This document shows positions 21,932 to 63,010 of a DNA stretch of 64,000 nucleotides, in pieces. The stretch comes from a virus. The DNA is taken from IMG/VR virus record IMGVR_UViG_3300020186_000013, positions 144,146 through 208,145 of that record; one strand, written 5' to 3'. Under the pieces are notes generated by a model. It made no database searches. It worked only from the letters and a program-made list of their open reading frames with translations, and was not told the origin of the DNA. The position numbers and the translations under genes were made by a program. Position 1 is the first letter of the stretch, and the number at the start of each line of letters is the position of its first letter.

Positions 21932-22005
21932 ACCCACCGGCGGGACTCGAACCCGCATAATCCCGCTTAGAAGGCGGTCGCTCTACGCGATTGAGCTACG
22001 GGAGG
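21932..22005 (-). tRNA. tRNA-Arg (TCT)
   Basis: Cloverleaf read on the minus strand: acceptor CCTCCCG/CGGTGGG (one mismatch), D-arm GCTC/GAGC, anticodon loop CTTCTAA (anticodon TCT), T-arm GCGGG-TTCGAGT-CCCGC. No encoded CCA. It decodes AGA, a codon rare in GC-rich genomes. Confidence 0.85.
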
Positions 22006-22009
22006 ATAG

Positions 22010-22081
22010 TCGGGGTGGCAGGACTCGAACCTGCGACTTCATGGTTATGAGCCATGCGAGCTGCCTCTGCTCTACACCCCA
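22010..22081 (-). tRNA. tRNA-Met (CAT)
   Basis: Cloverleaf on the minus strand: acceptor TGGGGTG/CACCCCG with a U1-G72 wobble, D-arm GAGC/GCTC, anticodon arm CATGG-CTCATAA-CCATG (anticodon CAT), T-arm GCAGG-TTCGAGT-CCTGC. No CCA. It could also be a tRNA-Ile2 whose CAT is modified to lysidine; the anticodon stem lacks the GGG/CCC of initiators. Confidence 0.85.
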
Positions 22082-44600: not shown

Positions 44601-46924
44601 GAGTCGAACAGCTTGGTGCCTTGGAGCTTGCCGCCCTGGCCGTAGCCGCCCATGGTCTTGGCAAACCCGGCTGCCCCGCGTCCCATTAAGCCGCCAACAC
44701 CACGAACAAGGGCACCAAAGTACGCTCGTTTCTCAAGGTCCTTCCGCTGACAGTGGTCGAAGAACGCTTTAGCGGCTGGAGTCATATCACTTCCCCCCTT
44801 GGCGAGTCCCGGCACTGTCGGCACGTGTGGTCGGATGAACCCAGGAACTTCCTGTCGGGCCGCGTCCTGTTGCTGTTGAAGCCGCTGCACCGCCCCTTGG
44901 CGAGCGTCGTCGATCGCCTTGTTGCCTGCTTGCTGCACGGAGTCGGCAGTCTCGTTGCCTACCTGTCGAGCGGAATTGGCCCACGCCTGCCCGCTCGTCG
45001 TGCGACCTAGCATTTGGTTGATGATCACCTGCTTGGCCACGGACTGCTTGGCCGCTTCTTGTTGCTGCCGAATACGCTGCATCGCTTCCTGCCGAGCAGT
45101 GTCGAGAGCCTCGCCACCCGCCTGCTGTGCGGACGAGGCCAGCGTCTGTACGCTCTTCTGAGCTATCCTCCCCTGTTCCTGGGCCATCAGCCGAGACGCC
45201 TCCTGGGCCGACATCCCTCCGCTCACCCTCTGAGCCCACGCCTTCGCAGCCGGGTGCGACATAGCCCCAGCAGCTTCCGGCGACTCGGCCACAGCCTTGA
45301 GGTTGAATTTCGGCTGAGCCGCAGCCAAACGAGGGTACAGGTTGGCTGCGGCGGTCATCTTGGCCGCGTCTTGCGGCGACTTCCAGGTCGACCAATTCAG
45401 CATGTCGGACACGGCGGGCACGTCGAGGGCACCCTGCACCCTGTTGCTTTTCATCGCAGCAGCCACCAGCGGCTCAGCCCTGGCGGCGTTGTTGTCCCCG
45501 ATCGCGTTGCCGAGGTGCGTGCGAACCGAGCGGTTCTGGAGCTCCTGCAACGCCTCGGGCGGGTAGTATTCGTGGCCGGTCCTCGTCGGCAGGCCGTGCT
45601 CATGGAACTGATTCTTCGAGAACGTCTGCGATCGGGCGATCGGGCTAACAGCCCGGAGCAGCCGCTGGCCCGTCGGGCTGTTGACGTTGGCCTCATAGTT
45701 CTGCTGGAGGGCTGGCAGCCGCTTGCGGACTTCCTCCTCCATGATCTGCTCGGTCGGGGCCGGCGTATAGTCGGCAAGGTTGCGGATCACCCCCTGCATG
45801 ATGTTGCCGCCCGCCGTGAAGTTGCCGATCCGCTTCATCACGTTGTTGACCGGGTTCTCGTTCGCCTGCACCATGCTGTTGTGGGCGGCGTTGCCGACGG
45901 TATACGGGAAGTTCCGCTTCCCCGCAGCCCGACCAACCTCGGCAATGTCGGACTTGTCCGTCAAGCTGTCCCATATCGCGGGGAGCGGATTGTCCCGTAA
46001 CTTGGCAATCTCGCCGTTCGGGTCCACCGTGTTGTACGGGTCAACGGCTCTCGTGAACCTCTGGAGGTTGTTAGCCGGGGCGTGCCACAAGGCATTCACC
46101 CCGCTGCCGAGGGCCACGCCCGCACCACCGAAGCCGACGATCTTGGTCGCAGCCCCGAGAGCCTTGTCGGCCCCCATGAGACCGTACCCGCCCGCCTGCT
46201 GTGCCCGACCCAGGATCGCCTTGCCTCCACCCTGGGCCACGTTCGTAGCACCACGGGCGAGCAGATTGTTCTGGATCGGGGTCGTGAGTGGGCGAGTTAA
46301 GGGCGTACCCAGCAGGTTCTTGGTCACGTTGGCCGCGTGCATGAACGGGTGCGTGAACCGGTTGCGGTCGAGGTAATTGAGAGCCTTGTTGGTCACCCCA
46401 ACACCAGGGATGCGGGACCAATTGCCTGGTAGCTCATGGGTCGCAGCGAGTTGCTCGCGAGTCTGCCCCGCCGCCAAGCGGGCGTTCATCCCCGGTCGAC
46501 GCAGGAACGGCTTCACCGTCGTCGAGTTGAACATGGTCTCGCCACGGAGGTTGCCCCCCTGACCAAAACCAGCGAGGTCCCGCACGTACGCCTTGCCGCC
46601 GTGGACCTGGGCGTCGCCCACGGCCTTCGCACCCGACCGGGCCACCTGGTTGACCTTGTCCGCCGCCTGGAAGGGTGCCTTCACCACGGCCTTGGTGCCC
46701 TGCCCGAACATCCGGGCCGCAGGACGGCCAATGCCGTTGAACAGGCCCACAGCACCACGGCCAAGGGCACCGAAGACGGCCTCCTTCTCCAGCCCCTCAT
46801 TCAGCTCGGCGTACACCTGCTCGCCGAAACGAAGGCCCACGCCGTCAACAGCCTCTTTGATCTGTTGCGGCGTGAGTCCCTTGTCACGGCAGCGGGCGAA
46901 GAATGCCTCGGCAAACGGCGTCAT
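41657..46924 (-). CDS. Giant three-module presumed virion protein
   Basis: 1755 aa from ATG 46924 (TGAGGA 6 nt upstream). Three modules each begin DMTPxAxxFFxxC: about residues 1-713, 714-1093 and 1094-1755. Modules 1 and 2 are clear duplicates (e.g. NVAQGGGKAILGRAQQAGGY and NVAQGGGRAVLGRGQQAVGY; TPLTRPLTTPIQNNLLARGA and TPLTRPFTQPIQNSMLTRGA), joined by PGLAKGGSDMTP and PGFDKGGMDMTP linkers. Gly/Ala-rich hydrophobic stretches, Gln/Ala-rich helices and a tandem Pro-rich segment (43681-43810) fill the rest. Size, composition and place near tail and portal genes suggest an inner-virion or ejected protein. SD-like AGGGGGGAA before the module-2 ATG (44785) hints at an internal start. Confidence 0.75.
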   Translation of the reverse strand: MTPFAEAFFARCRDKGLTPQQIKEAVDGVGLRFGEQVYAELNEGLEKEAVFGALGRGAVGLFNGIGRPAARMFGQGTKAVVKAPFQAADKVNQVARSGAKAVGDAQVHGGKAYVRDLAGFGQGGNLRGETMFNSTTVKPFLRRPGMNARLAAGQTREQLAATHELPGNWSRIPGVGVTNKALNYLDRNRFTHPFMHAANVTKNLLGTPLTRPLTTPIQNNLLARGATNVAQGGGKAILGRAQQAGGYGLMGADKALGAATKIVGFGGAGVALGSGVNALWHAPANNLQRFTRAVDPYNTVDPNGEIAKLRDNPLPAIWDSLTDKSDIAEVGRAAGKRNFPYTVGNAAHNSMVQANENPVNNVMKRIGNFTAGGNIMQGVIRNLADYTPAPTEQIMEEEVRKRLPALQQNYEANVNSPTGQRLLRAVSPIARSQTFSKNQFHEHGLPTRTGHEYYPPEALQELQNRSVRTHLGNAIGDNNAARAEPLVAAAMKSNRVQGALDVPAVSDMLNWSTWKSPQDAAKMTAAANLYPRLAAAQPKFNLKAVAESPEAAGAMSHPAAKAWAQRVSGGMSAQEASRLMAQEQGRIAQKSVQTLASSAQQAGGEALDTARQEAMQRIRQQQEAAKQSVAKQVIINQMLGRTTSGQAWANSARQVGNETADSVQQAGNKAIDDARQGAVQRLQQQQDAARQEVPGFIRPHVPTVPGLAKGGSDMTPAAKAFFDHCQRKDLEKRAYFGALVRGVGGLMGRGAAGFAKTMGGYGQGGKLQGTKLFDSRTVKPLMNRADMQSRVAAGATKEQLAQTHQLPGMMDGVPGVSMLSRGVHALDTNRLAHPLVQAVKTVKNTLSTPLTRPFTQPIQNSMLTRGAANVAQGGGRAVLGRGQQAVGYGLKGFDKTMGGVTQAAGVTGAGLLGAGGAMALAKSNPTNIDDVSNKLPYAIGNAAYNAQQNEEKYPLYRGLGYVNKFTLGGQLSSQIQNALADPTQAPPSETAGVVGNIAPQLAAPVTNAAQQPQPQAQPQPQAQPMPQAKPVPQHVVPAYTGSRLPANFGQQQPVPPVPYTGSRLPANFGQQQPVPPVPYTGPRLPGFDKGGMDMTPFAESFFDHCRQKGLGLSQIKSAVDRVGTNYGLQVHAELAAGLKKLAFLDSFDKMVGGKQEKPKTAPTAPSPGTLPTGKNQVSQKTQVAQATHPQGMGEVSVNKNTGAASLAPPPMSITGPKSMKATSEVANEQAAGSAQQLASQYAPSGWSMMGGQQMAQGLGSMFGQKQAFEKDAVWPSKETLVSGAKWLGGLVRPGASSTKPLMRTGTRGAPTPGMGPKIVSPRPATHGKDNSGLNITEAATLPRAATAAGRTRANMSGSGMQMTFGGLQGNMTANAMGGGEGSFTLGSPGIDPATGQPEGGWRSWRINPLGIAGGALMGNRGFRNSATGQTLWRPLAQSFAGTNIGFGMDQLGDMTGNGDPNDPEKWSRRLSRAGLMTGLGGNVAAARNSSLVRTNAAARAAGTTPVEPSMLSRGVTTALEAPSNAMTRMGQGVMDPFSRAGHFLWGKGAYQSGAAGLSGARKLGFRAGQGLTLGTGAAALGGTAYGSLHDQVAGDVDNKINDLKKTFIEQDYPTLQANIARDADKYMHERGFLNEEGQFDPTQEIRYQIGQRVGNVGNPFLKALGYDTENMTGGQRGMALGGMGLGGLGMLTGNPLIMAGGAGLAAYPRIQQNPGAISDAWNKLTGGQAPARDELHHQTNKARQAAQGLTGEGHS
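43681..43810. repeat. 60-bp tandem repeat in giant gene
   Basis: Two near-identical 60-bp units (43681-43740, 43741-43800) and a partial third encode PYTGSRLPANFGQQQPVPPV units. Identity at the DNA level suggests recent expansion. Confidence 0.8.
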
Positions 46925-46932
46925 GTCCGTCC

Positions 46933-49122
46933 TCACGCAAGTCGACTGAGTATCGCACCCTCGGCGATGAAGTTGGCGATGTCGAGGTCAACGGCGTCCT
47001 TCTCGGCCACGGGAGGGTCGTACGCGGCCTCGTCGGCACGGCGTCGCTTGGCGTCTATGGTCTTCTTGAACAGGCCCTCGTCGCCGCCGCAGGCGTACCA
47101 GTCGTCCATCCCCTCCTTGGAATGGAGGCCGTGCATCCCGCCCGCCATGATCCCGGCGGCACCCATGGTCGTGTCACGGTTGAGATCGTTGTTCACCACA
47201 GAGTCTGCGAGGTAGTCGTGCCTGTTGGCCCCCTTGGGAGACCGCCGCATGATCTCCTCCAGGTCCTCGTTGTTGGCCTTGCGGCTCAGGTACGCCAACG
47301 CACCCGTGATGCCCGCACCACCGAGACCGCCGATGGCTGCTCCCGTGCCGCCGCCAAGGTGAGCACCCAGGGCCGCACCGCCGAGACCGCCGAGGATGCC
47401 GGCACCAACGCCCTGCTTGGCCGGGGAGGCCATCATCTCGGGAATGGGCGTGGCATAGCTCTGGAAGATCTTGGGCAGCAGCCGGGACTTACCCTGGTCG
47501 ATCTGAGCCGTCTCGTCGGCGTCGAACTCCCGTGCGGACTTGTGCCGGCCCTTGAACGGGTTCGGCTCCTCCTTGGGCTTCTTCTTCAGGTAGTCGCCCA
47601 CTGAGGCCCACGCCTCCTGGCCCTGCATGTAGTGGTCGGGCTTGTGCTGGTACGACAGGTGCGTCCCCTCGCCCGTCGCCGTCACGGCCTTGCCCTTGTT
47701 GTCTTGGGCTGCGGACTTGAGCAGGAGCACGATCGCCCGGATGTCGAAGCTCCGCTTGTTAATCTCGTTGGCAGCGACGTCCTTGACGCCGGCCTGCTTG
47801 AGGATACCGGCCTCCTTGAGCAGCTGCCGGATCACGGTCACCCGGTCGGACGCCTGCTTCTTCTTGGCCAGGTGCTCTTCGACCTCACGGTCAGACTTCT
47901 CATCGGCCGACTCCATCTTGTCGCCAATGACAGGAGTCGCAGCGTGGTAACCCGCCACACCGCCGAGCCCGCCACCGGCAAGGCTGCCGAGGAACGTCGC
48001 AAGCGGCCCGCCACCCATGTGGTGCGACAGCAGGGCACCCGACGCTGAACCAAGACCAACACCGGCACCCGTGGAGATGCCACGGGCAGCACCGCGTGCG
48101 GCACCCATCGCCATCCGGCCCTTGGCGTGGCCGTAGCCTGCCCCGGCCACGCCACCGATACCGGCACCCTGCAATGCACCGCTGATGCCCGATCCCGCCG
48201 CGTAGCCGAGGGCCGCACCCAGGGGCATCTCGGCCTGCTTGTCTAGAATCTGGCTTTTAGATCCGCCGTCGGACGCCTCGGCCATCATGCCCATTCCCAT
48301 GCTGTCGTTCTTCAGGTCCTCCCGAGCGGCAGCCTGACCGACCGGACGACGGTTCTTCATGTTGAGCAGCCGCATCACGCCGTGGCGGATGTTCTGGCGG
48401 CGGTGCACCGGCGGCGGTGGCGGCGGGTCCTGCGGCGAGGTGCCAGGAACCGGCTGTCCGGGAGGCGGCTGGCCCGGTGCCACCGGCTGTCCGGGCATCG
48501 GGGGAGGCGGCATCGGTGGTTGGCCGGGGGGAGCACCCGGAGGGGGAGCCATGCCCGGAGGAGCACCCGGAGGGGGAGCCATGCCCGGAGGAGCACCCGG
48601 AGGGGGAGCCATGCCCGGAGGAGCACCAGGCGGCGGACCGGCCATCGGAGGACCAGCTGGAGGCGGTGCCAGGCCCGCAGCCTTTTTACTAAAAGCGGAT
48701 TTCTCGGCGAAAAGGGGTCGCCCGGTGTCGAGGGCCGTCCCAGGGTTCGTCGCCGTGGGTGGGTTAGGTCGGAGCGTGCGTACATTCCGGCTCTTGGCCT
48801 TGGAAGAACGCACCGGTCCCCCGTTGGGAACCGACTGAGCGGCCTTCATCTGACCCACAATCCGGGCCACCGCATCCCGAATGCCCTTTCCTGCCGCCCC
48901 GCTCGCCTGCTTCTGGGCCTGCTGGGCCGCAGCCTGAATGCCGCCGACCGTTGCGTTCGGTTGGGGGCGTGCGGCGATAGACTTGATGGGGTTGTTCTGG
49001 GCAGGCTTGCCCGCACCGGAGAGCATCTTGCTCAGGCCCATGCCCGGAAGACCGCCCATTCCCGACTGCTGCCCGCCGAGGACGATAGGACTCGGCTGAG
49101 CACCAAGAGCTTGCTTGTTCAC
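46933..49122 (-). CDS. Large Pro-rich and glycine-zipper presumed virion protein
   Basis: 729 aa, GTG 49122 with GGAGG 7 nt upstream. About residues 155-235 are Pro-rich with PPGAPPGMAP repeats. Two regions (about 305-400 and 570-620) are Gly/Ala-rich hydrophobic zippers (GALQGAGIGGVAGAGYGHAK, GGLGGAALGAHLGGGTGAAI). Lys-rich stretches lie between. It ends 8 nt before the giant protein's ATG. Composition resembles ejected or membrane-penetrating virion proteins; no family recognised. Confidence 0.7.
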   Translation of the reverse strand: MNKQALGAQPSPIVLGGQQSGMGGLPGMGLSKMLSGAGKPAQNNPIKSIAARPQPNATVGGIQAAAQQAQKQASGAAGKGIRDAVARIVGQMKAAQSVPNGGPVRSSKAKSRNVRTLRPNPPTATNPGTALDTGRPLFAEKSAFSKKAAGLAPPPAGPPMAGPPPGAPPGMAPPPGAPPGMAPPPGAPPGMAPPPGAPPGQPPMPPPPMPGQPVAPGQPPPGQPVPGTSPQDPPPPPPVHRRQNIRHGVMRLLNMKNRRPVGQAAAREDLKNDSMGMGMMAEASDGGSKSQILDKQAEMPLGAALGYAAGSGISGALQGAGIGGVAGAGYGHAKGRMAMGAARGAARGISTGAGVGLGSASGALLSHHMGGGPLATFLGSLAGGGLGGVAGYHAATPVIGDKMESADEKSDREVEEHLAKKKQASDRVTVIRQLLKEAGILKQAGVKDVAANEINKRSFDIRAIVLLLKSAAQDNKGKAVTATGEGTHLSYQHKPDHYMQGQEAWASVGDYLKKKPKEEPNPFKGRHKSAREFDADETAQIDQGKSRLLPKIFQSYATPIPEMMASPAKQGVGAGILGGLGGAALGAHLGGGTGAAIGGLGGAGITGALAYLSRKANNEDLEEIMRRSPKGANRHDYLADSVVNNDLNRDTTMGAAGIMAGGMHGLHSKEGMDDWYACGGDEGLFKKTIDAKRRRADEAAYDPPVAEKDAVDLDIANFIAEGAILSRLA
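48530..48630. repeat. 30-bp tandem repeat in Pro-rich gene
   Basis: Three 30-bp units (48541-48570, 48571-48600, 48601-48630, the last with one change) plus a partial one encode the PPGAPPGMAP repeats. Confidence 0.8.
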
Positions 49123-52433: not shown

Positions 52434-54293
52434 TTACTTGCGGCCGAGCTGACTGCCGCCGAGCCCGCCCATCGCCGCACCACCCGCCCCCAACAAACCC
52501 GGCAGGTAGCCCACGAGCTTACGCAGGAAGCCGGCCCTGCCGCCACCACCACCGCCAAGGTTCAAGGCGGCACGCGGCCCGCCATGCACGCCAGACCCGC
52601 CTCCCATCTTACCGGCAGGGAACGGTTGATTCTTGGTCAACAAGCCTGCCCGCCGGGCCGTCGGGTTGGGCATCGGCTTGGGCGGTGCCATCATGGTCTT
52701 TCCGAGACCATAACCGGCACCGCCGGCAGCGATACTGCCAATCATCGCACCCGGTGCATTCATGTCGTCGCCCATCTTCTGGAACATGTGGCCCGCATCC
52801 TTCATCGGCCCCATCATGCTCGCCGAGCCCTTCGTGTCGCCGCAGTCCTCGTTGGCCCGCTTGTGGGCATAGTTCGTCGCGGCCTTGCACAGCTCGTGGG
52901 CCAGGATGCCCCGTGCCTCGCCGTGCAGGTGAGGGAAGGCGACCTTGATGGCCTTGGTCAGCTGGTTGCCCGACACGATCTCAGCCTGGAGGCGTCGAAC
53001 AGCCCCACGCTTCTCCAGTGGCATGAGACGCACCACCTCATTGAGGTAGCCGTCCATGCAGTCCCGTGCGACCTTGACCTGGTACTTGGCCACCTTAGTG
53101 AGGATGACCCGCTTGACGGCCCGCTGAAGTTGATTGTCCGAGGCTTGCTTCTTCTTCTTGCGACCCTTGACAGCCTTGTACGCACCGTACCCGAGTGCAC
53201 CGGCACCAAGGGCGGCAGCCAGGGGGCCGAGCAGCCCCATGCCGCGACCCGGAGCCGCCTTGGCGGCGGGCACACCCTCACCCGTTGGGGTGGACGTCAG
53301 GCCCTCGGCCGGCTTCGGCACAATACCGCTCTGGCTCTGGCCCGACAGCTTGGCAGTGATGTCGCCAAGCGATTTGGGCAGAAAGCCCGATGCTCCGCTC
53401 AACTCACGCGGAGGAGGGGCCAGTGCGGGCGAGTTGCCGAGGAACCCGTCCACGGGCTCGGGCTTCTGGGGGAGCATTCCGCTGAGCCGGGACAACGCCC
53501 CACGCTGCGGGCCGGCAAGACTCTCGGGCCGACTCGGAATCAGCCCGGTCAGTTCGTCACCGGCCGTCTTGCCCTCTCGCTTCTTGCGGGTCATGCGGTG
53601 GCCGAGGTACGCACCGCCGCCGATCAGACCCGTGGCGAGCAGGGCCTGCATGGCCGGAGACATCCCGCCCCCGCCGCCAGCGGCAGCAGCACCACCAGCG
53701 GCGGGATCACCGGCTGGGTTACCCGCATTGGGCGTGGCCGCATCGGCCGGGTCGGGCTTGGACACGGAGACGTCGGACGGCGGTCCGCCGAGATCCAGGC
53801 CGGCTCCAGGGGCAGGCGTGGCAGCTGGACCGCCCTTACCCTTGAAGGGGACACTCAAGATGCCCGCCCCAGCACCGCCGAGAATCCCTAACGAACCGAG
53901 CCCGACCCCGAGCTTGTTCCTGGCCAACCAGCTGGCCGGCACCGGAGGGGCAGCGAGCTTCACCAGCTCATTGAACGCCTGGGGGTCCGCGTAAGCATTC
54001 TTGCAGAACGCCGCCAAGGGCATCCGGCAGACGCCCGCCAGGTGCTGAATCTCGTCGCGATTGAGGCCGCTGTCGGCGGCGAGCTTGTTGACGTATGGTG
54101 CCTCGGCAGCCGCAGCGGCCAGGGCGGCGATCTTGCTCATCGAAACCTCCGTGTTTGAAGAAGCGGACTTCTCGTCGTTACCGACGCGATCGGGTAGGGC
54201 CTTGATGTTCGGGGTGTGGTCGGCCCACCGCTTGGCCGTTGCCGGCTTTTGCGAAAACATCCAGCGTTGCTGGGCCTTGGACTTGAAAGGCAC
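52434..54293 (-). CDS. Large Gly/Pro-rich presumed virion protein
   Basis: 619 aa from GTG 54293 (GGAGG 7 nt upstream). The N-terminus PFKSKAQQRWMFSQKPATAK, then RWADHTPNIKALPDRV, matches a widespread phage-associated segment of unknown role ('KSKAQqRWMfa..PemAkeWa..TpniKsLPekv'). The centre is Pro/Gly-rich with zipper stretches (LGVGLGSLGILGGAGAGILS, LLGPLAAALGAGALGYGAYK) and a basic patch (KGRKKKKQASD). The end is Gly-rich (LGGGGGGRAGFLRKLVGYL). Resembles the other large presumed virion proteins. Confidence 0.7.
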   Translation of the reverse strand: MPFKSKAQQRWMFSQKPATAKRWADHTPNIKALPDRVGNDEKSASSNTEVSMSKIAALAAAAAEAPYVNKLAADSGLNRDEIQHLAGVCRMPLAAFCKNAYADPQAFNELVKLAAPPVPASWLARNKLGVGLGSLGILGGAGAGILSVPFKGKGGPAATPAPGAGLDLGGPPSDVSVSKPDPADAATPNAGNPAGDPAAGGAAAAGGGGGMSPAMQALLATGLIGGGAYLGHRMTRKKREGKTAGDELTGLIPSRPESLAGPQRGALSRLSGMLPQKPEPVDGFLGNSPALAPPPRELSGASGFLPKSLGDITAKLSGQSQSGIVPKPAEGLTSTPTGEGVPAAKAAPGRGMGLLGPLAAALGAGALGYGAYKAVKGRKKKKQASDNQLQRAVKRVILTKVAKYQVKVARDCMDGYLNEVVRLMPLEKRGAVRRLQAEIVSGNQLTKAIKVAFPHLHGEARGILAHELCKAATNYAHKRANEDCGDTKGSASMMGPMKDAGHMFQKMGDDMNAPGAMIGSIAAGGAGYGLGKTMMAPPKPMPNPTARRAGLLTKNQPFPAGKMGGGSGVHGGPRAALNLGGGGGGRAGFLRKLVGYLPGLLGAGGAAMGGLGGSQLGRK

Positions 54294-54348
54294 GGGCACC
54301 CCTCCATGGATGTCCTTATGTTCGCAACTTCCGGCACCAAACACAAGC

Positions 54349-54372
54349 CGGCGTGGGGACGGCCCCACGCCG
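54349..54372 (-). terminator. Terminator-like hairpin
   Basis: CGGCGTGGGG pairs with CCCCACGCCG (10 bp, 4-nt loop), followed on the minus strand by GCTTGTGTTTGG. It lies just after copy D of the repeat and the 54396-55193 stop. Confidence 0.55.
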
Positions 54373-54375
54373 ATC

Positions 54376-54391
54376 TAGAAACTGGAATCTA
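54376..54391. repeat. 16-bp near-palindrome, copy D
   Basis: TAGAAACTGGAATCTA, between the stop of 54396-55193 and a strong hairpin. Confidence 0.5.
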
Positions 54392-54395
54392 CGTC

Positions 54396-55193
54396 TCAGC
54401 CCGCCGGAGCATCGAACCCACCGACCAGCTCACCCGGCTTAGCTTCCGCCGCCTTCTTGGCCCGCCGCTCGTCGATGAGCTGTTGCACATTGGGCGGGAC
54501 CGGGGGCTTGATGCACGCATGGATCAGTCGCATGTACTTGCCCATGAACGCCTTCATGGGCTCACTGTGGGGATGGCCGTCCTCCCGCCTGCCGGGGATG
54601 ACCTGACGGACGATCCCCTTCATGAGTTCGACGAACGGCCCATCGCCGCCATGGTTGTCCCCGAACTTGGCGTACAGGCCGTCAAGGCCGTCAGTCAGCA
54701 CCATGTTGACGAGCTGCTTCACCTGGTTGGCGAGCAACGTGCACACAATGCCGTCCGTGAAACCCTGACCCTCAACGATCTCGACCGGCGTGTGGATCAT
54801 GACGGGCAGGATCGTGCCGTCGTCCCACTCCAGCATGTATAGGAGCTTGGTCGAGGCCAGTGTTCGCTTGGGCATGGCCCGCGTTGCGGTGACAATGGCG
54901 TTCCACACCGGAGCCAACGCCTGCACGGCACTCGGTGAATGGCTCAGAGCCTCGATGTAGGTGAATACCTCGGGATGCAGCTTCAGCCGGGTCTGCATCT
55001 CGTCGGTGTCGATTGAGACGACATGCCCTTGCAACCACCCCAGGAACGCCTCGGGGTTGATGACGTGCCGGTGGACGTCGGGAACTTCCTCGTCCTTGCA
55101 GTAAGCATCGAAAAAGTGCGTCAACGCCAGGGTCACCTGACGGTCCCGCTCAGGACTCGGCTGACTGAAGTCCATTTCGTCGCTACTCGGCAC
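54396..55193 (-). CDS. Hypothetical protein
   Basis: 265 aa, GTG 55193 (GGAG 7 nt upstream), overlapping the previous gene. Mixed alpha/beta (LLYMLEWDDGTILPVMIHTP, then VCTLLANQVKQLVNMVLTDG). The C-terminus is Lys/Pro-rich. Not recognised. Confidence 0.65.
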   Translation of the reverse strand: MPSSDEMDFSQPSPERDRQVTLALTHFFDAYCKDEEVPDVHRHVINPEAFLGWLQGHVVSIDTDEMQTRLKLHPEVFTYIEALSHSPSAVQALAPVWNAIVTATRAMPKRTLASTKLLYMLEWDDGTILPVMIHTPVEIVEGQGFTDGIVCTLLANQVKQLVNMVLTDGLDGLYAKFGDNHGGDGPFVELMKGIVRQVIPGRREDGHPHSEPMKAFMGKYMRLIHACIKPPVPPNVQQLIDERRAKKAAEAKPGELVGGFDAPAG

Positions 55194-55539
55194 GGTCGCA
55201 CTCCCTCTGGGAAGGCCAATCCGGGTTGCCGGCCTTCTCGTACTTCAGCTCGTTGGGGGTTAAGACACGCATGCCCAACATGCGGGCCAGTTTGTGCAGG
55301 TCCTCGGTCTCGTAGACGGCGTACTGCTGCTTGTGGGCGAACATGCCCTCGCGGCCGAACCGGTCATCCACGAAGAGCTTGCCGTGGTCGTCGCTCTCGG
55401 GCAGGCAGTCCGCTTCGAGCCAGTCCACGCCGCACGGACCGCCGTGCACGAACAGACCGGACGAGTAGCACGGCTTCCACTGGGAGTAGACCGTGCCCTC
55501 GGGCATGCTCATCAGTTCGTCGCGGGAGACGATTCGCAT
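55183..55539 (-). CDS. Hypothetical protein
   Basis: 118 aa from ATG 55539 (TGATG overlap). MRIVSRDELMSMPEGTVYSQ, then GPCGVDWLEADCLPESDDHG; a Cys- and acid-rich small soluble protein of a type often seen in phage genomes. No family assigned. Confidence 0.6.
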   Translation of the reverse strand: MRIVSRDELMSMPEGTVYSQWKPCYSSGLFVHGGPCGVDWLEADCLPESDDHGKLFVDDRFGREGMFAHKQQYAVYETEDLHKLARMLGMRVLTPNELKYEKAGNPDWPSQRECDRAE

Positions 55540-55925
55540 CAGATGATCCGGAGTTCTTCGGACTTCTTGACGCCGTCCATGCCGGGCTGGGATTCGCCGG
55601 TGGTCACGTGCACCGCCCCGGAGTCCTGCATGGTGCCCGCCACCTTGCTGCTCGGGCTGATCGTGCACCGCACGTGGTTAGACAGCTGGAACCCGTGGTT
55701 GCTGTCCACGGGAAAGAACTGCACGGGGCGGTTCTTATCGAGGTACGCCACAGCGAACTTAATGAAGTCGTTCGCGGACGGCGGCTTGGCGTTCTTGTCC
55801 GGCTTGATGCCGTGCTTCATGCGGGCCTCGTCCACGTACGCCTGGAACTCCTTAGTAAGGAGGGCGATGAGGTGGGGTAGGTCCTCGGTGGCCGGGTTTG
55901 TGTGGTAGATCGAGTCGCCAAACAT
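55539..55925 (-). CDS. Hypothetical protein
   Basis: 128 aa from ATG 55925 (AGGGCG upstream). Helical N-terminus (LIALLTKEFQAYVDEARMKH), then a small beta region. Overlaps its neighbours, so it is in the same transcript. Not recognised. Confidence 0.6.
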   Translation of the reverse strand: MFGDSIYHTNPATEDLPHLIALLTKEFQAYVDEARMKHGIKPDKNAKPPSANDFIKFAVAYLDKNRPVQFFPVDSNHGFQLSNHVRCTISPSSKVAGTMQDSGAVHVTTGESQPGMDGVKKSEELRII

Positions 55926-55965
55926 CCTGTTCGCCCTGGTTCGTGGTTGGTAGTGTCTGCGGCCT

Positions 55966-56280
55966 TCAGCCCTTCTTCGGCTTCTTCGGGTGCATCGCCG
56001 GATACGCGAGCGGAACCACCTCGACCTCATCCATCAGTGCCGCGATGGACTTCTCCATGGACGAGAGGGGCGGCGGGTTGTCCTTGATCCGCTTCGACCG
56101 CTGGGCCAGCTTCGCCTGAAGGATGGCGATGTGGCCCTCCATCTCGGACTTCAGGAACGCGACGATCTGTTCGTCGGTCCAGTCGTTGCGGGCGACGTTA
56201 GGGGAGTGCAAGTTACTGCACTCTCCGTCCGCCCAGCTGATGTGCACCATCAGCGAGATCTGACAGAGGTCGGGTTCCAT
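55966..56280 (-). CDS. Hypothetical helical protein
   Basis: 104 aa, ATG sharing bases with the stop of the tubulin-like gene (TAATG), so the two are co-translated. Helix (TDEQIVAFLKSEMEGHIAIL), then a Pro-rich basic end (HPKKPKKG). It could be a partner of the GTPase, but only by position. Confidence 0.6.
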   Translation of the reverse strand: MEPDLCQISLMVHISWADGECSNLHSPNVARNDWTDEQIVAFLKSEMEGHIAILQAKLAQRSKRIKDNPPPLSSMEKSIAALMDEVEVVPLAYPAMHPKKPKKG

Positions 56281-57695
56281 TAGTCCTGTACACCCAAGAA
56301 AGAGGCCACGCCTTTGGGGCTCGACGCGGTGTCGAGCATGCCCTTCTTCCCGAGTTCGGCCAGCCGGTCGAGTGGCGGGTCAAGCTCGGAAATCATCGTG
56401 TAGCACTGTAGCCCAGGCTCGGCACCCAAGTAAAGGCCACGGTGGATGACGGTGGGCACCTTCTTGCTGTACGCCGACCCGATCAAGCGGTCGAGCTGCG
56501 TGAACCCGGCGTCGAAGTAGTCGAGGCTGAGACTGTCAAGCACGTCCTGGCTGCCCACAAACAGGCACGCCGCCTTCTTGCCCCGCTTGAGATCGACCGT
56601 GGCCAGGACGTTGTTGGTCAAGTCCTCGCGGATGCGAGTCGAGATGTCCGCCGGGGTGTTGATCGACTCCACAGGTATGTCGGCCGCACCGAGTACCACC
56701 ACGCCGCCGTCGAGGAGCTGGGCGAACTCCGCACGGTCGAACGTGATGAACTCGCTGTGCACGGCGGCGAGCTGGTTGAACAAGTGGAACAGCTGACTCA
56801 CGGTCTCGTTGGCCGTGGCGTGCAGGCGGGTCATGCCCGGCTTGTACAGCTCATGGATGCGGGCGTTGTCGATGATCAGCATCGGGCTGACCTTCATGTC
56901 CAGGAGGGTCTTGAACGTCTGCACAGCATTCTTCGACACCTGCTGCCCCTCGGTCGTCGGCGGCAACGACACGATACAACCAACCCTCGGGGGCTTGCCC
57001 TTGCTCTCCATGTACTTGCGGGCCAGGTCGACCAGAATCGGCGTCGTGCCGCTGCCAGTCCCACCACCCAGCCCAACACAGATCAGAGCGTAGTCCGGCG
57101 AATTGCCCCACGACCGTGTCATGAGGTCCCACACTTCCTCCTCACGCCCGCGAAGGCTGTTGGCAGCGAAGATGGGGTCCTTGGCGGCACCACCCACGGC
57201 CAGGTTGAGCTTGGGGATGGGCTCGGCGATACCCGCGAAGTCCATATCGGTCGTGTTCATCACCGCCACGCGGCGGTAGCCAAGCTGGTAGAAGGCGTTG
57301 GCGATGCGACTGCCGCCTTGGCCGGTGCCCAGGAACGCCATGTTGAAGGCCACGTCGTAACCGAACTCATCGTTGACCACGACCTGCTTGACGGCCTGCT
57401 GGCGGGACGAGGGGCTCAGCGACTTGGCCACGTTGGTCGGCGTCGGGCTGCCCGCACGCGGCGGAATCATGACCTTGGGGGCGATGGCACCCGTCGCCGG
57501 GGCCATAACCTTCGGGGCGACGCTCCGGGTCACCACCGGCTTGTTGCCCACGGCCTTGCCCGCAGCGGCTGCCTGCTCGGCGACCTTCTGCATTTCCTCT
57601 TCCGTCGGTTTCTCAGCCACCACATCCTCCTTGTTGGCGGGCGATGGAGGACCTTTTGGGAAATCCCGCCAGCCCATCTCGCCGTTCCGCATCAT
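56280..57695 (-). CDS. Tubulin/FtsZ-family GTPase
   Basis: 471 aa (ATG 57695, AGAGGAA upstream). Residues 1-105 are a Lys/Pro/Ala-rich extension. FLGTGQGGSRIANAFYQLGY (121-140) is the first nucleotide loop. GLGGGTGSG (208-216) is the tubulin/FtsZ signature. CIVSLPPTTEG and the helix/strand order that follows agree. FDRAEF at 319-324 occupies the T7 catalytic loop (NxDxxD in FtsZ) as T-x-D-x-x-E. It should bind GTP and may form filaments, as PhuZ does to centre the jumbo-phage nucleus. Too divergent to place it with PhuZ, TubZ or FtsZ. Confidence 0.85.
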   Translation of the reverse strand: MMRNGEMGWRDFPKGPPSPANKEDVVAEKPTEEEMQKVAEQAAAAGKAVGNKPVVTRSVAPKVMAPATGAIAPKVMIPPRAGSPTPTNVAKSLSPSSRQQAVKQVVVNDEFGYDVAFNMAFLGTGQGGSRIANAFYQLGYRRVAVMNTTDMDFAGIAEPIPKLNLAVGGAAKDPIFAANSLRGREEEVWDLMTRSWGNSPDYALICVGLGGGTGSGTTPILVDLARKYMESKGKPPRVGCIVSLPPTTEGQQVSKNAVQTFKTLLDMKVSPMLIIDNARIHELYKPGMTRLHATANETVSQLFHLFNQLAAVHSEFITFDRAEFAQLLDGGVVVLGAADIPVESINTPADISTRIREDLTNNVLATVDLKRGKKAACLFVGSQDVLDSLSLDYFDAGFTQLDRLIGSAYSKKVPTVIHRGLYLGAEPGLQCYTMISELDPPLDRLAELGKKGMLDTASSPKGVASFLGVQD

Positions 57696-57727
57696 GGTGA
57701 TTCGTTCCTCTCCGAAGAGGCAGTAGA

Positions 57728-58792
57728 CTACCCACCCACGCCCCAAATGGTCAACCACAGGTCGGCGAATGCTTTGCGGTTGACAGATAAAGGCCAGTCG
57801 CCCGACTGGAGGCGAAACAACTTGGTCTTGTCCGTCAGGGCGGCGATCGCGGTGGTGAGGAACTGCACGCTGCTGGGTGCGGCCACGGGTGCCTGCATCC
57901 AATTGGCCCCTAACTCGCACGGCACCAAGACGCCGTTGTAGTTGTTGGTGATGAGTTCTGAGAACGGAGCCACGTCGTACGTGATCACGGGCAGACCGCA
58001 GGCGTGTGCCCGCGTCGCGACGAGGCCGAAGTCTGCCCTCACGGACGGGATCAGGCACCAATCGTGCGTCTGCATCACATGCGTCTGCTCAACCATGGAT
58101 GTCGGATAAAGCACCATCAGCCGCCCCTGCCACACAGCCACCAAGCCCTGAATCCGTCCCCGATCTCGCTTCGACCAAGTCTTGGTGCACATAAGCGTCA
58201 CGCGGCTGTGCTCGACCTGTTCGAGGAGCTGATTGACAATCCGCAGTGTCATCAGCCCGCACTCGTCGATACAGTGCGTGTCGCACGCCACCAAGAGCTT
58301 AACCCCGCCGCTGCCACTCAGACCCTCGTGCGGTGTCAACGTAAGACCGGAGTCCCACCGGCCCCACGTCAGTACCTTGTCGTCGGGCACCTTATCCTTG
58401 AAGATGTGTGTCCGCACCAGGTGGTGACACAGCTTGGTCGGGCACACGATAGTGTCGAAGCCACCGGCTACGAACCCCTTGGCGTCAAGTGTCAAATGGT
58501 GCCAGGACGGGACTAAGATGTGCTTGGCCTTGTCCGACACGAGTGTTGCCATGTCGTGGTACTCTTCGTCGCACACGAACCACACACAACGGGAAGCGGT
58601 ACGAACGGCCAAGTACAGGCCGTTGTCCCGGCCGCTGACAACGTGCTTGTCCCAGTACGGGTGAATGCCTTGCTCGTGCACGCCCAAGGCAACGAGCTTA
58701 ACGTCAATGCCGGCGGCGACACCGAGGTCGGCCAGGCGGATCGCCGCCATAGTGACCTCGTTACGACCGTAGGGGGTCAGGATGGTGATCAT
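57728..58792 (-). CDS. Family 4-like (GT-B) glycosyltransferase
   Basis: 354 aa. The N-terminal Rossmann half (MITILTPYGRNEVTMAAIRL, then HILVPSWHHLTLDAKGF) is followed by a second half with ADFGLVATRAHACGLPVITY and DVAPFSELITNNYNGVLVP, the 'EgFGlvxxEAmAxGxPVIaxdxgg.xElv..g.nG.Lv' donor site of GT4. The first acidic residue of that motif is replaced by Asp. Normal length. It overlaps the next gene (ATGA). Confidence 0.8.
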   Translation of the reverse strand: MITILTPYGRNEVTMAAIRLADLGVAAGIDVKLVALGVHEQGIHPYWDKHVVSGRDNGLYLAVRTASRCVWFVCDEEYHDMATLVSDKAKHILVPSWHHLTLDAKGFVAGGFDTIVCPTKLCHHLVRTHIFKDKVPDDKVLTWGRWDSGLTLTPHEGLSGSGGVKLLVACDTHCIDECGLMTLRIVNQLLEQVEHSRVTLMCTKTWSKRDRGRIQGLVAVWQGRLMVLYPTSMVEQTHVMQTHDWCLIPSVRADFGLVATRAHACGLPVITYDVAPFSELITNNYNGVLVPCELGANWMQAPVAAPSSVQFLTTAIAALTDKTKLFRLQSGDWPLSVNRKAFADLWLTIWGVGG

Positions 58793-59466
58793 CGGCCGTC
58801 TCCGTGATTAGTGTGCTTGTGAAACACGAAGTACGGCGAGTTGTCCCGGCAACCCAATAGCTCGCCCCACGGCGTGCCGAACTTCCACGAGGTGTAGGGA
58901 AAGCTGATCTGATCCCGCAGGCTGTGCTTCTGGATCTGATCCCACCAGAACGTGCTGAACTCGACCACGTCGGGATAGTTGTGTCGGACGAGGCAGGCGG
59001 TCTCGGCCAGGCCGTAGGACGGCGGGAACCCGTTGAACTTGTACTCACTGACTTGCTTCTGCATCACCTCGACCGAGTCCTTGCGGAACTTGGTGCACGC
59101 CACGAACTCGGAGTACGCACAGTTGCGATGTGGGTGCTTGAACGTGGCGATCTCACGCGGCCCGGTGATTGAGTCGAGGATAGTCGAGATGGGCGTGCGT
59201 GACTGGAGGCAGGCGTCGATCCAAACCCAGCAGTCGTAGTCCGGGAGCAGCTCGTGCACCATCACCTTATGGTAGCGGGCGGTGCGTCGCGAGCTGCCGG
59301 GGTGCCGCCAAGCTAAGGGGCGGGCTTGCCACGGGGCAGGGAACCCGTGGTCGTGGTCCGTGAACACGAAGTGGTCGACCCCGACCTCTTCACGCCACTC
59401 GTACAGCGGGGACCTGAGCCGATCTGTGATCGAGCCAAACAGTCCCGTGTATACCGCTACACGCAT
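58789..59466 (-). CDS. DUF616/TOD1-like glycosyltransferase
   Basis: 225 aa. MRVAVYTGLFGSITDRLRSP, then VDHFVFTDHD, YHKVMVHELLPDYDCWVWIDA and ATFKHPHRNCAYSEF, NGFPPSYGLAETACLVRHNY, WWDQIQKHSLRDQISFPY reproduce the DUF616 pattern known from plant TOD1/MUCI70-type and bacterial surface-glycan genes. Overlaps the GT4 gene. Confidence 0.75.
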   Translation of the reverse strand: MRVAVYTGLFGSITDRLRSPLYEWREEVGVDHFVFTDHDHGFPAPWQARPLAWRHPGSSRRTARYHKVMVHELLPDYDCWVWIDACLQSRTPISTILDSITGPREIATFKHPHRNCAYSEFVACTKFRKDSVEVMQKQVSEYKFNGFPPSYGLAETACLVRHNYPDVVEFSTFWWDQIQKHSLRDQISFPYTSWKFGTPWGELLGCRDNSPYFVFHKHTNHGDGR

Positions 59467-59496
59467 GGCAGACCTTCTTCCTTGAAGGGGTGTGAA

Positions 59497-60249
59497 TTAG
59501 GGACGTGGCAGCGAGTTGTCCTCTTTCTCGTTGGCGGGGGTAACAAACGACTTCACCATACACAGCACTGTCGGGTTCACGGCACGCAAGCGGCGATACG
59601 CCCCCGCACGCCCGGCCTCGGACATTGTCACCACCTCGGCCGCGATTTCCTTAGCGATCGCCAGGAGGTGCCGGACACCTACTTCCTCCCGGCCGTGGGC
59701 AATCTTGCTCAACCGGTCCAGCAAGTCCTTTCGTACCAGGTTCCAACCTGTCTCCAGGTCGCTAACCTTATCGTCCTTGGCAGGCATACCCAAGTCCAGC
59801 ATCACGGCAACGCCGTCGATCACCATCATGCCCTCGCCGACACACACGGTCTGCGACACCGTGTCGCCCTCAGCAGCGGTGAGCGTCTGGAACCGGGCCT
59901 TGATCGGGGCCTGCTTCGTTTGCTCCCGGATGGCGTCTTCGAGGACCTTTTCATTCCGCTCCCTGTGCCCCATCTTGCGTGGCGGCTCTTCCTTCTTTGT
60001 CGGAGGCTCGGGCAACTTGGCGGGCCGTTCGGGGGCCACGGCGGGCGTCCAGTGCGTCCACCGCATCGTGTCCGGGGCACACATGTCGCCGAACGTGTAG
60101 TTGTACTTGGTCGCGAGCAAGTTGCCGGTCGATGGGTAGTCATGCACGATCGAACGCACGCGGACGAGGTCAATCTCCCCGTGCCGGGAGATCGCCCAGT
60201 AGTACCCCGGATACTTCGGCTCGTCGGTGGACCAGACAGTCGCAGACAT
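59497..60249 (-). CDS. Hypothetical protein
   Basis: 250 aa from ATG 60249 (TGATG overlap with the glycosyltransferase). Not recognised. The N-terminus is aromatic (DEPKYPGYYWAISRHGEIDL); the middle has a Pro/Lys/Glu-rich hinge; the C-terminal 130 residues are helical and acidic. No membrane segment. Confidence 0.65.
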   Translation of the reverse strand: MSATVWSTDEPKYPGYYWAISRHGEIDLVRVRSIVHDYPSTGNLLATKYNYTFGDMCAPDTMRWTHWTPAVAPERPAKLPEPPTKKEEPPRKMGHRERNEKVLEDAIREQTKQAPIKARFQTLTAAEGDTVSQTVCVGEGMMVIDGVAVMLDLGMPAKDDKVSDLETGWNLVRKDLLDRLSKIAHGREEVGVRHLLAIAKEIAAEVVTMSEAGRAGAYRRLRAVNPTVLCMVKSFVTPANEKEDNSLPRP

Positions 60250-61061
60250 CACGTCACCTTTCGGAACCACTTGCCCCGCTTGTACCGCTCTCCTCGGGTA
60301 GCAGCACGGTAGTGAAATACAAACGAGCCGGGCACCACGGCGGTCTTGAGACCCGCCTTGTGCCACCGTCCTTGCAGCTCGTCCTCGTTGAGAGTCATCA
60401 GCGGGGTCGGGTTGGGTCGACCCTTACTGTTCCACGGGTTGGAGGGCTTGAACACGTGCTCCTTGTCGAACGCATTCTGCCACCACACGACCGTCTTGGC
60501 CATCATGCAGAAGCCGTTGACCGACGAGAGCACCACGTTGTTAAAGTGCCTCTTGTAGAGAATCTCCGCGATGCCGTCCAGGTACTCGGGACTGTCGTTG
60601 AGGTGGTAGCCCAGCAGGTACTTGTCGACCTCCTGACGTCCCTCGGCCGTGATACCGGGGGCGTTCGACACGGGGCCGACCAGAGCGTAGCCCTTGTCGA
60701 GCCAGTGGACCAGGGACGTCGTCCACCCCCTAGTGAACAGCACGTCACTGTTCGTGCAGCAGGCGAACTCGAAGTTGAGTAGGCGAGCCGCCCGCAGACC
60801 CTCGTTCCAGGACCGGGTTAGCCCGCCATTGTCGGGAAAGCCGAGGTACATGAAGCGGGTCTGGTACTCCTTGGCGACCTCGGCCAGAAGCGGGTGCGGT
60901 CCGTTCTCGTTGTACTTGTAGCGGTCGAGCATCTCGGGGCTGGCGTCGTCAACGACCATTACGGCGGCGTCGGGCGTCGTCCGGAAGAGGGACTCGCACG
61001 CCGCCGCCGCATAGTCGAACTGCCCGTAGGTCGGGATGATGACCAGGAATCTGGGTTGCAT
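60249..61061 (-). CDS. Family 2 (rhamnosyltransferase-like) glycosyltransferase
   Basis: 270 aa (ATG 61061, TGATG overlap with the portal). PRFLVIIPTYGQFDYAAAAC, then VMVVDDASPE and FPDNGGLTRSWNEGLRAARL, is classic GT2. CCTNSDVLFTRGWTTSLVHW has the 'lNsDv' site in place of DxD. YLLGYHLNDSPEYLDGIAEI and the C-terminal region follow the family. Position directly after the portal gene suggests it belongs to the virion operon. Confidence 0.8.
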   Translation of the reverse strand: MQPRFLVIIPTYGQFDYAAAACESLFRTTPDAAVMVVDDASPEMLDRYKYNENGPHPLLAEVAKEYQTRFMYLGFPDNGGLTRSWNEGLRAARLLNFEFACCTNSDVLFTRGWTTSLVHWLDKGYALVGPVSNAPGITAEGRQEVDKYLLGYHLNDSPEYLDGIAEILYKRHFNNVVLSSVNGFCMMAKTVVWWQNAFDKEHVFKPSNPWNSKGRPNPTPLMTLNEDELQGRWHKAGLKTAVVPGSFVFHYRAATRGERYKRGKWFRKVT

Positions 61062-63010
61062 CACTGACCTCCACCCCCGCCGCCCTGCTGCATCTGGGCC
61101 ATGGCCTGGTTACCCGCCTGGCTCTTTGTGTCCCGACGGATCTGGTCCATGCGGGCGGTGACCAGGCTATGCAGAACCTGGTTACCCTGCTTGAGCTTAC
61201 GAAGCTCAATGTCCTTCTCGCCCTCGGGCCTCCCAAGCAAACCCTGAGCAATCGTGTCTGCCGCCGCCATCATGTCCTGCGGAGTCTGGGGAACATTCGG
61301 CGACAGCTGCTGCATGTACTGCGTGACAGGACCAGCCATGCTTCCTTGCATAGCAGTAGCAGCGTCAGGGGCGGCACCACCAGGAGCACCACCGCCGCCT
61401 CCACCGCCAGCACCGCCGGGAGGAGGACCGCCACCAGCACCAGCAGACCCGCCTCCCTGAGCAGGAGGCTGACCTTTTGCAATTTGTTGTGCAAAGCCCG
61501 CTTGCTCCATTTCTTCCTGAGTGCGGCTCTGGATCTCGGACTGAGTCCGGGACTCCTCGGCCATTTGCTTCTGCTCTTGAATCCAGTCGTACCCCAGGGC
61601 CGACAGGGCACTGGTCCCCGACAGCTGCTGACTCATCATGAGCTGGAGGGCCGACATCTGCTTCTGCATGTCGTCGGCGATGGTGACCCGCTTCAGGATC
61701 GCGTCCACCGTCTCCCACGACAGGATCTGACCGACCTGCTTGACAATCCACTGGAGGGCCGAGTTGCAGTCGTGCACCAGGTGGTGCCACGTGCTCTCGA
61801 ACAGCCGCAGGGCCACCGGGGCCGTCTGAAGCTGGAGGGAGCCCTTGTACAGTTCCACAGGCGTGCCGGCGTCATTGAGCAGGGTCTCCATGCCCTGATC
61901 CATCAGCTCACGCGGGGCGAGCTGGTTGGCCTCGGCCCCGAGCATCTGGTAGTTGACGGGGAACGGCAGCACCTGCCACGACGCAGGATCGCGGCGGCGA
62001 CGCTTGATCATCGACTGGACCTGGCCCCGGAAGTCGCCGCCGTTGTACATCATCAGCGGATCTTGGGCGATGCCACCCGTCGAACTGCTGCCCTGGCGGG
62101 CACCCGGTGTGATGAGGCGGAACGGAATGACGTAGTCGAGGGCAATGGCCTCGTTGAAGCGGTGCAAGACCTGGACGTACCAGATCTGGCGGAAGTTCGA
62201 GATGATCCGGGGGATACCCCAGCCCCGGTTGAGCACGCCCGCGAGGGTCGGCTCTTTCATGTGGTAGATGGTGTCGTCGTTAAATCGGAACAGTTGGTTC
62301 TTGTGAATGGCGTCCAAGACCTGCTTGGGCACCCGTTCAAGATGGAACAGGTTGCCCTGGCGGACGGCTCGCTTGTACTCCTCGGGGATACGCCAGAGGT
62401 AGTGACATTCGTGCGTGTACGGGTCATGGAGGAGTTCGATCTCGTGCGGGTTCCACCGCTTGACCTTGATCTTGGTCTCTTCGTCATCGGCCTTGTCGTC
62501 GATCCGCCACTTGCCCCGGTAGCCGCCGCCCACCTTGCACTGCGGGCACGTGGCCGTGAAGTCCGGCATGTTGAAGGCGAACCCGAACGCGGCGTTCTCC
62601 ATCACCACCTTGAGCGGGTAATGGGCACCGCACTTGGGGCACCCCAGGAACCGCTTGAAAGGCACGATGACCGAGCTGAACGAGTTGCCGTAGCACATCC
62701 GGTCGCGGAGGAGGTTCTGCAACACCGTCATGATGTCGAGGGTGTCGTCGAGGAAGCCATCCCACTTCTTCTTCTCGTCGTCACTGACGTTGCGGATCTC
62801 CACGTCCGTGAGGAAGTAGGAGATGATCCGCTCCATCGCCATCCGGTAGGTGCCGAAGATCGAGTAGATGTACTCGCACCAGTACAGTGCGTTCCGCATC
62901 GTACCGGGGACGGCGAGAGACGAGACGTCGAGGAAGGGATCTGGGAACTGTTCGCCGCCTCCCACGCCGGAGAAGCGAGCGAACTGACCGCGAAGTGTAG
63001 CAGATCCCAT
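61061..63010 (-). CDS. Portal protein with zinc-binding insertion
   Basis: 649 aa. Family-like segments: FPDPFLDVSSLAVPGTMRNA, IFGTYRMAMERIISYFLTDV, LQNLLRDRMCYGNS, EPTLAGVLNRGWGIPRIISN, NEAIALDYVIPFRLITPGAR, LLNDAGTPVELYKGSLQL. These match large-phage portals, the ring through which DNA is packaged. An insertion with C124-x2-C127 and C155-x2-C158 probably binds zinc. The last 120 residues are Gly/Pro/Gln-rich. ATG 63010 has GGAGG 8 nt upstream. Confidence 0.8.
   Translation of the reverse strand: MGSATLRGQFARFSGVGGGEQFPDPFLDVSSLAVPGTMRNALYWCEYIYSIFGTYRMAMERIISYFLTDVEIRNVSDDEKKKWDGFLDDTLDIMTVLQNLLRDRMCYGNSFSSVIVPFKRFLGCPKCGAHYPLKVVMENAAFGFAFNMPDFTATCPQCKVGGGYRGKWRIDDKADDEETKIKVKRWNPHEIELLHDPYTHECHYLWRIPEEYKRAVRQGNLFHLERVPKQVLDAIHKNQLFRFNDDTIYHMKEPTLAGVLNRGWGIPRIISNFRQIWYVQVLHRFNEAIALDYVIPFRLITPGARQGSSSTGGIAQDPLMMYNGGDFRGQVQSMIKRRRRDPASWQVLPFPVNYQMLGAEANQLAPRELMDQGMETLLNDAGTPVELYKGSLQLQTAPVALRLFESTWHHLVHDCNSALQWIVKQVGQILSWETVDAILKRVTIADDMQKQMSALQLMMSQQLSGTSALSALGYDWIQEQKQMAEESRTQSEIQSRTQEEMEQAGFAQQIAKGQPPAQGGGSAGAGGGPPPGGAGGGGGGGAPGGAAPDAATAMQGSMAGPVTQYMQQLSPNVPQTPQDMMAAADTIAQGLLGRPEGEKDIELRKLKQGNQVLHSLVTARMDQIRRDTKSQAGNQAMAQMQQGGGGGGQ

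Follow-up and report, generated by a model that had tools for sequence, protein, structure and literature searches.

The 471-aa protein encoded on the minus strand of the analysed window (64,000 nucleotides, the final part of a 208,145-base IMG/VR virus contig, G000) is confirmed by its sequence as a member of the tubulin superfamily with intact GTP-binding loops and T7 acidic residues, and tree and fold together place it in a previously unrecognised clade that is sister to the plasmid protein TubZ. Its gene is linked to, and lies downstream of, a portal gene in two phage lineages without a detectable common terminase large subunit (TerL) or RNA polymerase.

An initial annotation of the window had called a tubulin-like GTPase at 56280–57695 without giving the strand; the interval is exact, the frame is real and the Pfam Tubulin model PF00091 matches the protein at 43.6 bits, above the gathering cut-off. 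The nearest solved structure by sequence is the Bacillus cereus TubZ/RepX 4ei7 (E 2e-10), with FtsZ ranking behind. The GGGTGSG loop, described there as intact, was found at residues 210–216, and its glycines belong to a larger set of positions that are invariant in 80 viral members of the family (G123, G125, Q126, G127, G128, N147, T148, D152, K172, the three T4 glycines, G214, G216, L244, P245, E249, G250, N256, D276, N277 and D320). The T7 loop, which had been described as altered (T-D-E), reads T318-F-D320-R-A-E323. It does have Thr in place of the FtsZ Asn, with both acidic residues present, but this is no peculiarity of the protein: across the viral family the Asn is swapped for Ser, Ala or Thr and the acidic pair is retained, and because all 80 members keep D320 and either Asp (69) or Glu (11) at position 323, the supposed alteration is the family norm. 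Two further stretches can be followed through the closest viral relatives (group A, described below), namely the end of the N-terminal extension (NvAxxLxP..QQA..QVVVxD), kept across the group A alignment, and the C-terminal peptide, with a group A consensus of VAxxLGVxD. Another IMG/VR contig, from a different sample (L010, 9.8 kb), carries the locus and its neighbourhood with 100% identity, so the presence of the gene on the contig is no assembly accident.

Features of the tubulin locus (positions in the window) and loci of the cellular relatives
Feature	Position	Strand	Basis
TubZ-like tubulin-superfamily GTPase, 471 aa	56280..57695	-	PF00091 E 5e-11; AlphaFold core pLDDT >90; Foldseek best 4ei7 E 7e-24
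N-terminal extension, residues 1-113, Pro/Ala/Lys-rich, mostly disordered (predicted)	57357..57695	-	group A alignment; pLDDT <50 at 1-27 and 46-83
T4 nucleotide-binding loop GGGTGSG, residues 210-216	57048..57068	-	glycines invariant in 80/80 viral members
T7 catalytic loop T-F-D-R-A-E, residues 318-323	56727..56744	-	F319 and D320 invariant, 323 = D/E, 80/80 viral members
C-terminal peptide SSPKGVASFLGVQD, behind flexible stretch	56283..56324	-	alignment columns
104-aa frame overlapping tubulin stop codon	55966..56280	-	homologue only in same-strain contig L010
g220, 128-aa small protein	55539..55925	-	phmmer homologues downstream of tubulin in L011, L013, L014, L015, L019, L020
g218, 265-aa protein	54396..55193	-	kept downstream of tubulin in most of group A
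g223, glycosyltransferase group 1, first gene upstream of tubulin	57728..58792	-	PF00534 E 4.5e-9
g224, TOD1/MUCI70-like glycosyltransferase	58789..59466	-	PF04765 E 3e-15
g226, glycosyltransferase family 2	60249..61061	-	PF00535 E 3.5e-10
g227, portal protein homologue, 649 aa, upstream of tubulin	61061..63010	-	phmmer to Arash annotated portal, E 1.5e-59
Phycisphaerae MAG tubulins	L121-L123, L139-L172		chromosomal TubZ-like proteins

In the AlphaFold model, 324 residues reach a pLDDT of at least 90 and make up the core; most of the 113-residue N-terminal extension and of the tail is disordered. Structures of the TubZ that partitions Bacillus plasmids (PDB 4ei7, 2xka and 2xkb) are the best fold matches, with B. 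cereus 4ei7 ranked first by Foldseek (TMt 0.78) and CetZ and FtsZ lower. An IQ-TREE phylogeny of 72 sequences joined group A, the more divergent viral group B and proteins from Phycisphaerae genomes into a single clade (support 99/97), which lies outside the clade formed by the TubZ sequences themselves (98/91) and is its sister (98/91). FtsZ, CetZ and Tubulin_2/FtsZl1 belong to the same superfamily but occupy separate branches, FtsZ with an archaeal relative (98/95); weaker matches of the Myxococcota type fall on another branch. PhuZ forms its own clade (100/100), and a tree that forces the family together with PhuZ is disfavoured only marginally (p-AU 0.055), the PhuZ branches being very long. 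Groups A and B as one viral clade were not rejected by the AU test (p 0.449), so the Phycisphaerae proteins may branch either within or beside the viral sequences. Although the phage protein and TubZ have a similar loop set (GGGTGxG, LP, FD..E/D), they are only about 20% identical, and the phage protein differs in the C-terminal peptide conserved in group A and in a gene order tied to the portal. The best viral structural match, A0A6J5RW92 (BFVD, uncultured Caudovirales phage, annotated ‘FtsZ Cell division GTPase’; E 3.5e-31, 25% identity), shows that a structural relative from a virus has already been deposited under the FtsZ name.

That the gene might be a host FtsZ, or some other cellular gene brought in by an assembly or binning error, is exceedingly improbable. 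The FtsZ model TIGR00065 does match the protein weakly, but at 40 bits, far below its cut-off of 295 bits; the gene occurs in 11 related phage contigs within a conserved operon that includes the portal homologue, and a close cellular copy is absent from the collections searched. With the cut-off, the 11 contigs and the portal operon, contamination by host FtsZ was ruled out, and the view of the initial annotation that this is a phage tubulin is borne out by the separate FtsZ branch and by the grouping of the family with TubZ.

Our own gene calling gave 230 genes on the whole contig, with PHROGs matches to terminase, DNA polymerase, helicase, primase, baseplate and tail proteins and the RNA polymerase beta-type subunits of an encoded multisubunit enzyme. 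Salmonella phage Arash and Vibrio phage D69 are nearest to it in RNA polymerase (~32%) and terminase (31–38%), and a tubulin was looked for in both and found in neither. Homologues of the Arash major capsid protein (g134) and portal (g227) are present on this contig of a large uncultured phage. The terminase large subunit gene lies outside the window (G000 44207–47416, plus strand; L004 6207–9416) and carries an insertion at about residues 204–620 that ends in VHN/C, intein-like; the terminase genes of most relatives align without that part. In two group A contigs (G002 and G005) the matches to RNA polymerase subunit genes are broken into several pieces within long open frames, which suggests inteins or other insertions. 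Within the window, short tandem repeats (30-nt units at 48523–48677; 60- and 18-nt units at 43669–43894) lie in large genes near a tail-lysin-like gene, and adjacent tRNA genes for Arg-TCT and Met-CAT are found on the minus strand at 21932–22081.

The tubulins known so far in phages are mostly PhuZ, from nucleus-forming phages, and a phage TubZ of the partition type. The present family is a separate and widespread branch, matched by 188 viral stretches in an IMG/VR scan with our first alignment and by none of 50,697 phage records searched by tblastn; a group B query gave two phage-record matches, at only E 0.02–0.07. For comparison, 80 of the 188 stretches were retrieved. Group A comprises 11 contigs of up to 235 kb with tubulins that are 52–63% identical, and the six members checked all match Tubulin_2. 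The tubulins of group B are ~35–42% identical, ~385 aa long and mostly missing the C-terminal peptide; one contig of this group, the 162-kb G010 (~35% G+C), comes from a tailed phage that encodes a DNA polymerase, a ribonucleotide reductase and a tape measure protein of 2,902 aa. No match was shared between the TerL and RNA polymerase of the two groups at the sensitivity of the search.

The gene order in group A is portal homologue, glycosyltransferases, tubulin, and the homologue of the Arash portal lies 1.8–4.1 kb upstream of the tubulin on the same strand in 11 of 11 contigs. The glycosyltransferase genes between the two (57728–61061 in the window) are kept across the group, with g223 lacking only in L020; downstream, the conserved g218 has no match in Pfam or PHROG. 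The initial annotation had instead proposed the 104-aa helical protein as a possible partner. Other group A contigs have unrelated genes at that position, and it is the portal gene, upstream, that stays near the tubulin throughout. A general partnership was ruled out by this distribution, and an obligate one is unlikely, judging by the same comparisons. In group B the order is TerL (b40), b42, tubulin. With near-identical contigs included in the counts, which are thus not independent events, b42 was found in 62 of 69 loci and lies at most 60 nt upstream of the tubulin in 46, often with overlapping stop and start codons; in the other 23 it does not directly adjoin the tubulin (insertions, gene moves, contig ends). 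The best Foldseek matches of a b42 model with a modest pLDDT of 60 are portal or neck structures, and we assign b42, with modest confidence, as the probable group B portal. Compared as profiles, the portals of the two groups are barely alike (34.6% probability) and would be at most very distantly similar.

We tentatively favour, at somewhat under an even chance, a GTP-driven TubZ-like filament that is made late and acts on capsids or packaging, because in each phage type the tubulin gene comes after that for the portal. The protein would be made together with the late head-assembly genes, hydrolyse GTP and polymerise into dynamic filaments in the infected cell; these would move capsids and packaging complexes or hold them in place, or else unite portals with replicated phage DNA, and the conserved group A C-terminal peptide may be a cargo or anchor site. 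Polymerisation, late expression and a capsid or packaging cargo are what we infer from the retention of the nucleotide-binding and T7 acidic residues in 80 viral members, the TubZ fold, the joint placement of both viral groups and the Phycisphaerae proteins beside TubZ, and a portal linkage that recurs in lineages sharing no detectable TerL or RNA polymerase and with portals hardly alike. Capsid transport by the PhuZ filaments of nucleus-forming phages is a precedent for a tubulin with such a cargo, and the linkage in two phage types suggests that head assembly or packaging may make use of cytoskeletal filaments even where no phage nucleus is formed. Against this, three to four genes, mostly glycosyltransferases, stand between portal and tubulin in group A, so the linkage there is at the operon level only; a third of the group B loci (23 of 69) lack direct adjacency, the b42 model is of modest confidence, and the genes of a late module can keep their order by descent even when their functions are not coupled.

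The main rival, which we consider unlikely, is TubZRC-like partition, in which a DNA-bound adaptor would tie phage genomes to a treadmilling filament and so segregate a plasmid-like or pseudolysogenic genome. Plasmid TubZ is indeed closest by fold and tree, TubZ in a phage partition system has a precedent in literature cited in PMC7824862 and PMC8597652, and the Lys/Arg-rich, histone H1-like N-tails that the Phycisphaerae relatives often have could bind DNA directly. The plasmid TubZ loci examined, however, have a small gene directly upstream, whereas the group A phages do not share any small TubR-like gene for a DNA-binding protein next to the tubulin (a distant adaptor is possible); no tubC- or iteron-like direct repeats were found in 54000–60500; and the gene sits within a block of structural genes, with no integrase or plasmid replication gene noticed among the reported family matches. 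A tubC/TubR cassette beside the tubulin was dismissed after the search of repeats and neighbouring small genes. Still more doubtful is mimicry of, or co-assembly with, a host tubulin, by which the phage would poison or redirect a host division or segregation filament: its closest cellular counterparts are tubulins of the same clade encoded on Phycisphaerae chromosomes, but at only about 29–33% identity, the full catalytic machinery is retained, unlike in a capping fragment, and group A phages are not tied to tubulin-bearing Phycisphaerae hosts.

A spindle of the PhuZ type, centring a phage nucleus as raised in the initial annotation, is a poor prospect. PhuZ of the Chimalliviridae jumbo phages is likewise a phage-encoded tubulin of large phages with a multisubunit RNA polymerase, an enzyme found alongside tubulin in jumbo phages (PMC7824862) but also in phages without nuclei (PMC10299810). 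Its structural match to our protein is weak (E ~1e-9 to 1e-11 vs 3.5e-31 for the best viral match), its branch is long and separate, and the fold is that of TubZ. The shell protein chimallin was missing among the 230 contig proteins by profile HMM and hhalign with five chimallins, a search that recovered a left-out chimallin at E 2e-84 and that, on a linear and possibly incomplete contig, would miss an unrelated shell protein. Nor is the proteome phiKZ-like: phmmer against phiKZ 1–246 kb gave four weak matches (best E 3e-4) and none of its core proteins. A scan of viral contigs with phiKZ PhuZ or chimallin gave almost nothing, a result accounted for by the exact-peptide method rather than by absence.

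When we scanned 84,980 genomes with a broader alignment, close relatives appeared only in Planctomycetota/Phycisphaerae MAGs; the group A alignment gave nothing in the same genomes, which reflects a limit of sensitivity since the broader one found the Phycisphaerae. These proteins reach profile E-values of 1e-114, and differ from the phage ones in the long Lys/Arg-rich N-tails of most copies (up to 40% Lys+Arg) and in a T1 loop, GxGQCGG, that is preceded by AW. Their context is chromosomal in L122 and L123, with gapA, pgk and rpe upstream and accD downstream of the tubulin gene. Profile searches found carriers in 7 of 120 genomes of the class, 19 of 98 of the order and, in a sample drawn from the whole phylum, 4 of 294, all four from the same order, and a search of 241 Verrucomicrobiota genomes at E 1e-20, run without a positive control, found no relative. 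Of 17 Phycisphaerae genomes tested, not one had FtsZ above the cut-off, while 13 of 14 controls did, and in nine carrier genomes the TubZ-like protein alone matched the FtsZ model. The nearest cellular tubulins thus come from an FtsZ-less planctomycete lineage, which gives indirect support to the suggestion that the phage may have a planctomycete host.

Published work describes planctomycetes as lacking FtsZ and asks what drives the binary-fission-like division of the Phycisphaerae (PMC6952346, PMC5147048). Our literature search found no description of the Phycisphaerae TubZ-like group, which offers a concrete candidate gene for the question of FtsZ-free, binary-fission-like division (PMC6952346); because most sampled genomes of the order are without the gene, it is not a general solution to FtsZ-free division. 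One ancient tubulin clade might be common to the FtsZ-less Phycisphaerae, as a DNA-tethered filament with Lys/Arg-rich tails serving segregation or FtsZ-free fission, and to two phage lineages, as a capsid or packaging track encoded in a portal operon, a broader scheme that we think improbable. The N-tails of L122 (7416–9041), L123 (7362–9041), L146 and L169 span 180–230 residues rich in Lys, Arg, Ala and Thr and resemble histone H1. The Phycisphaerae paralogues L147–L150 are without nucleotide-binding loops and retain the T7-like motif FDSMDYLDVLTAGG; from sequence, they are possible non-GTP-binding filament caps or partners. Tandem tubulin gene pairs occur in the Phycisphaerae genomes of L145/L146 (G129) and L172 (G014), with a long N-terminal region in only one gene of each pair, and could possibly encode a two-subunit filament.
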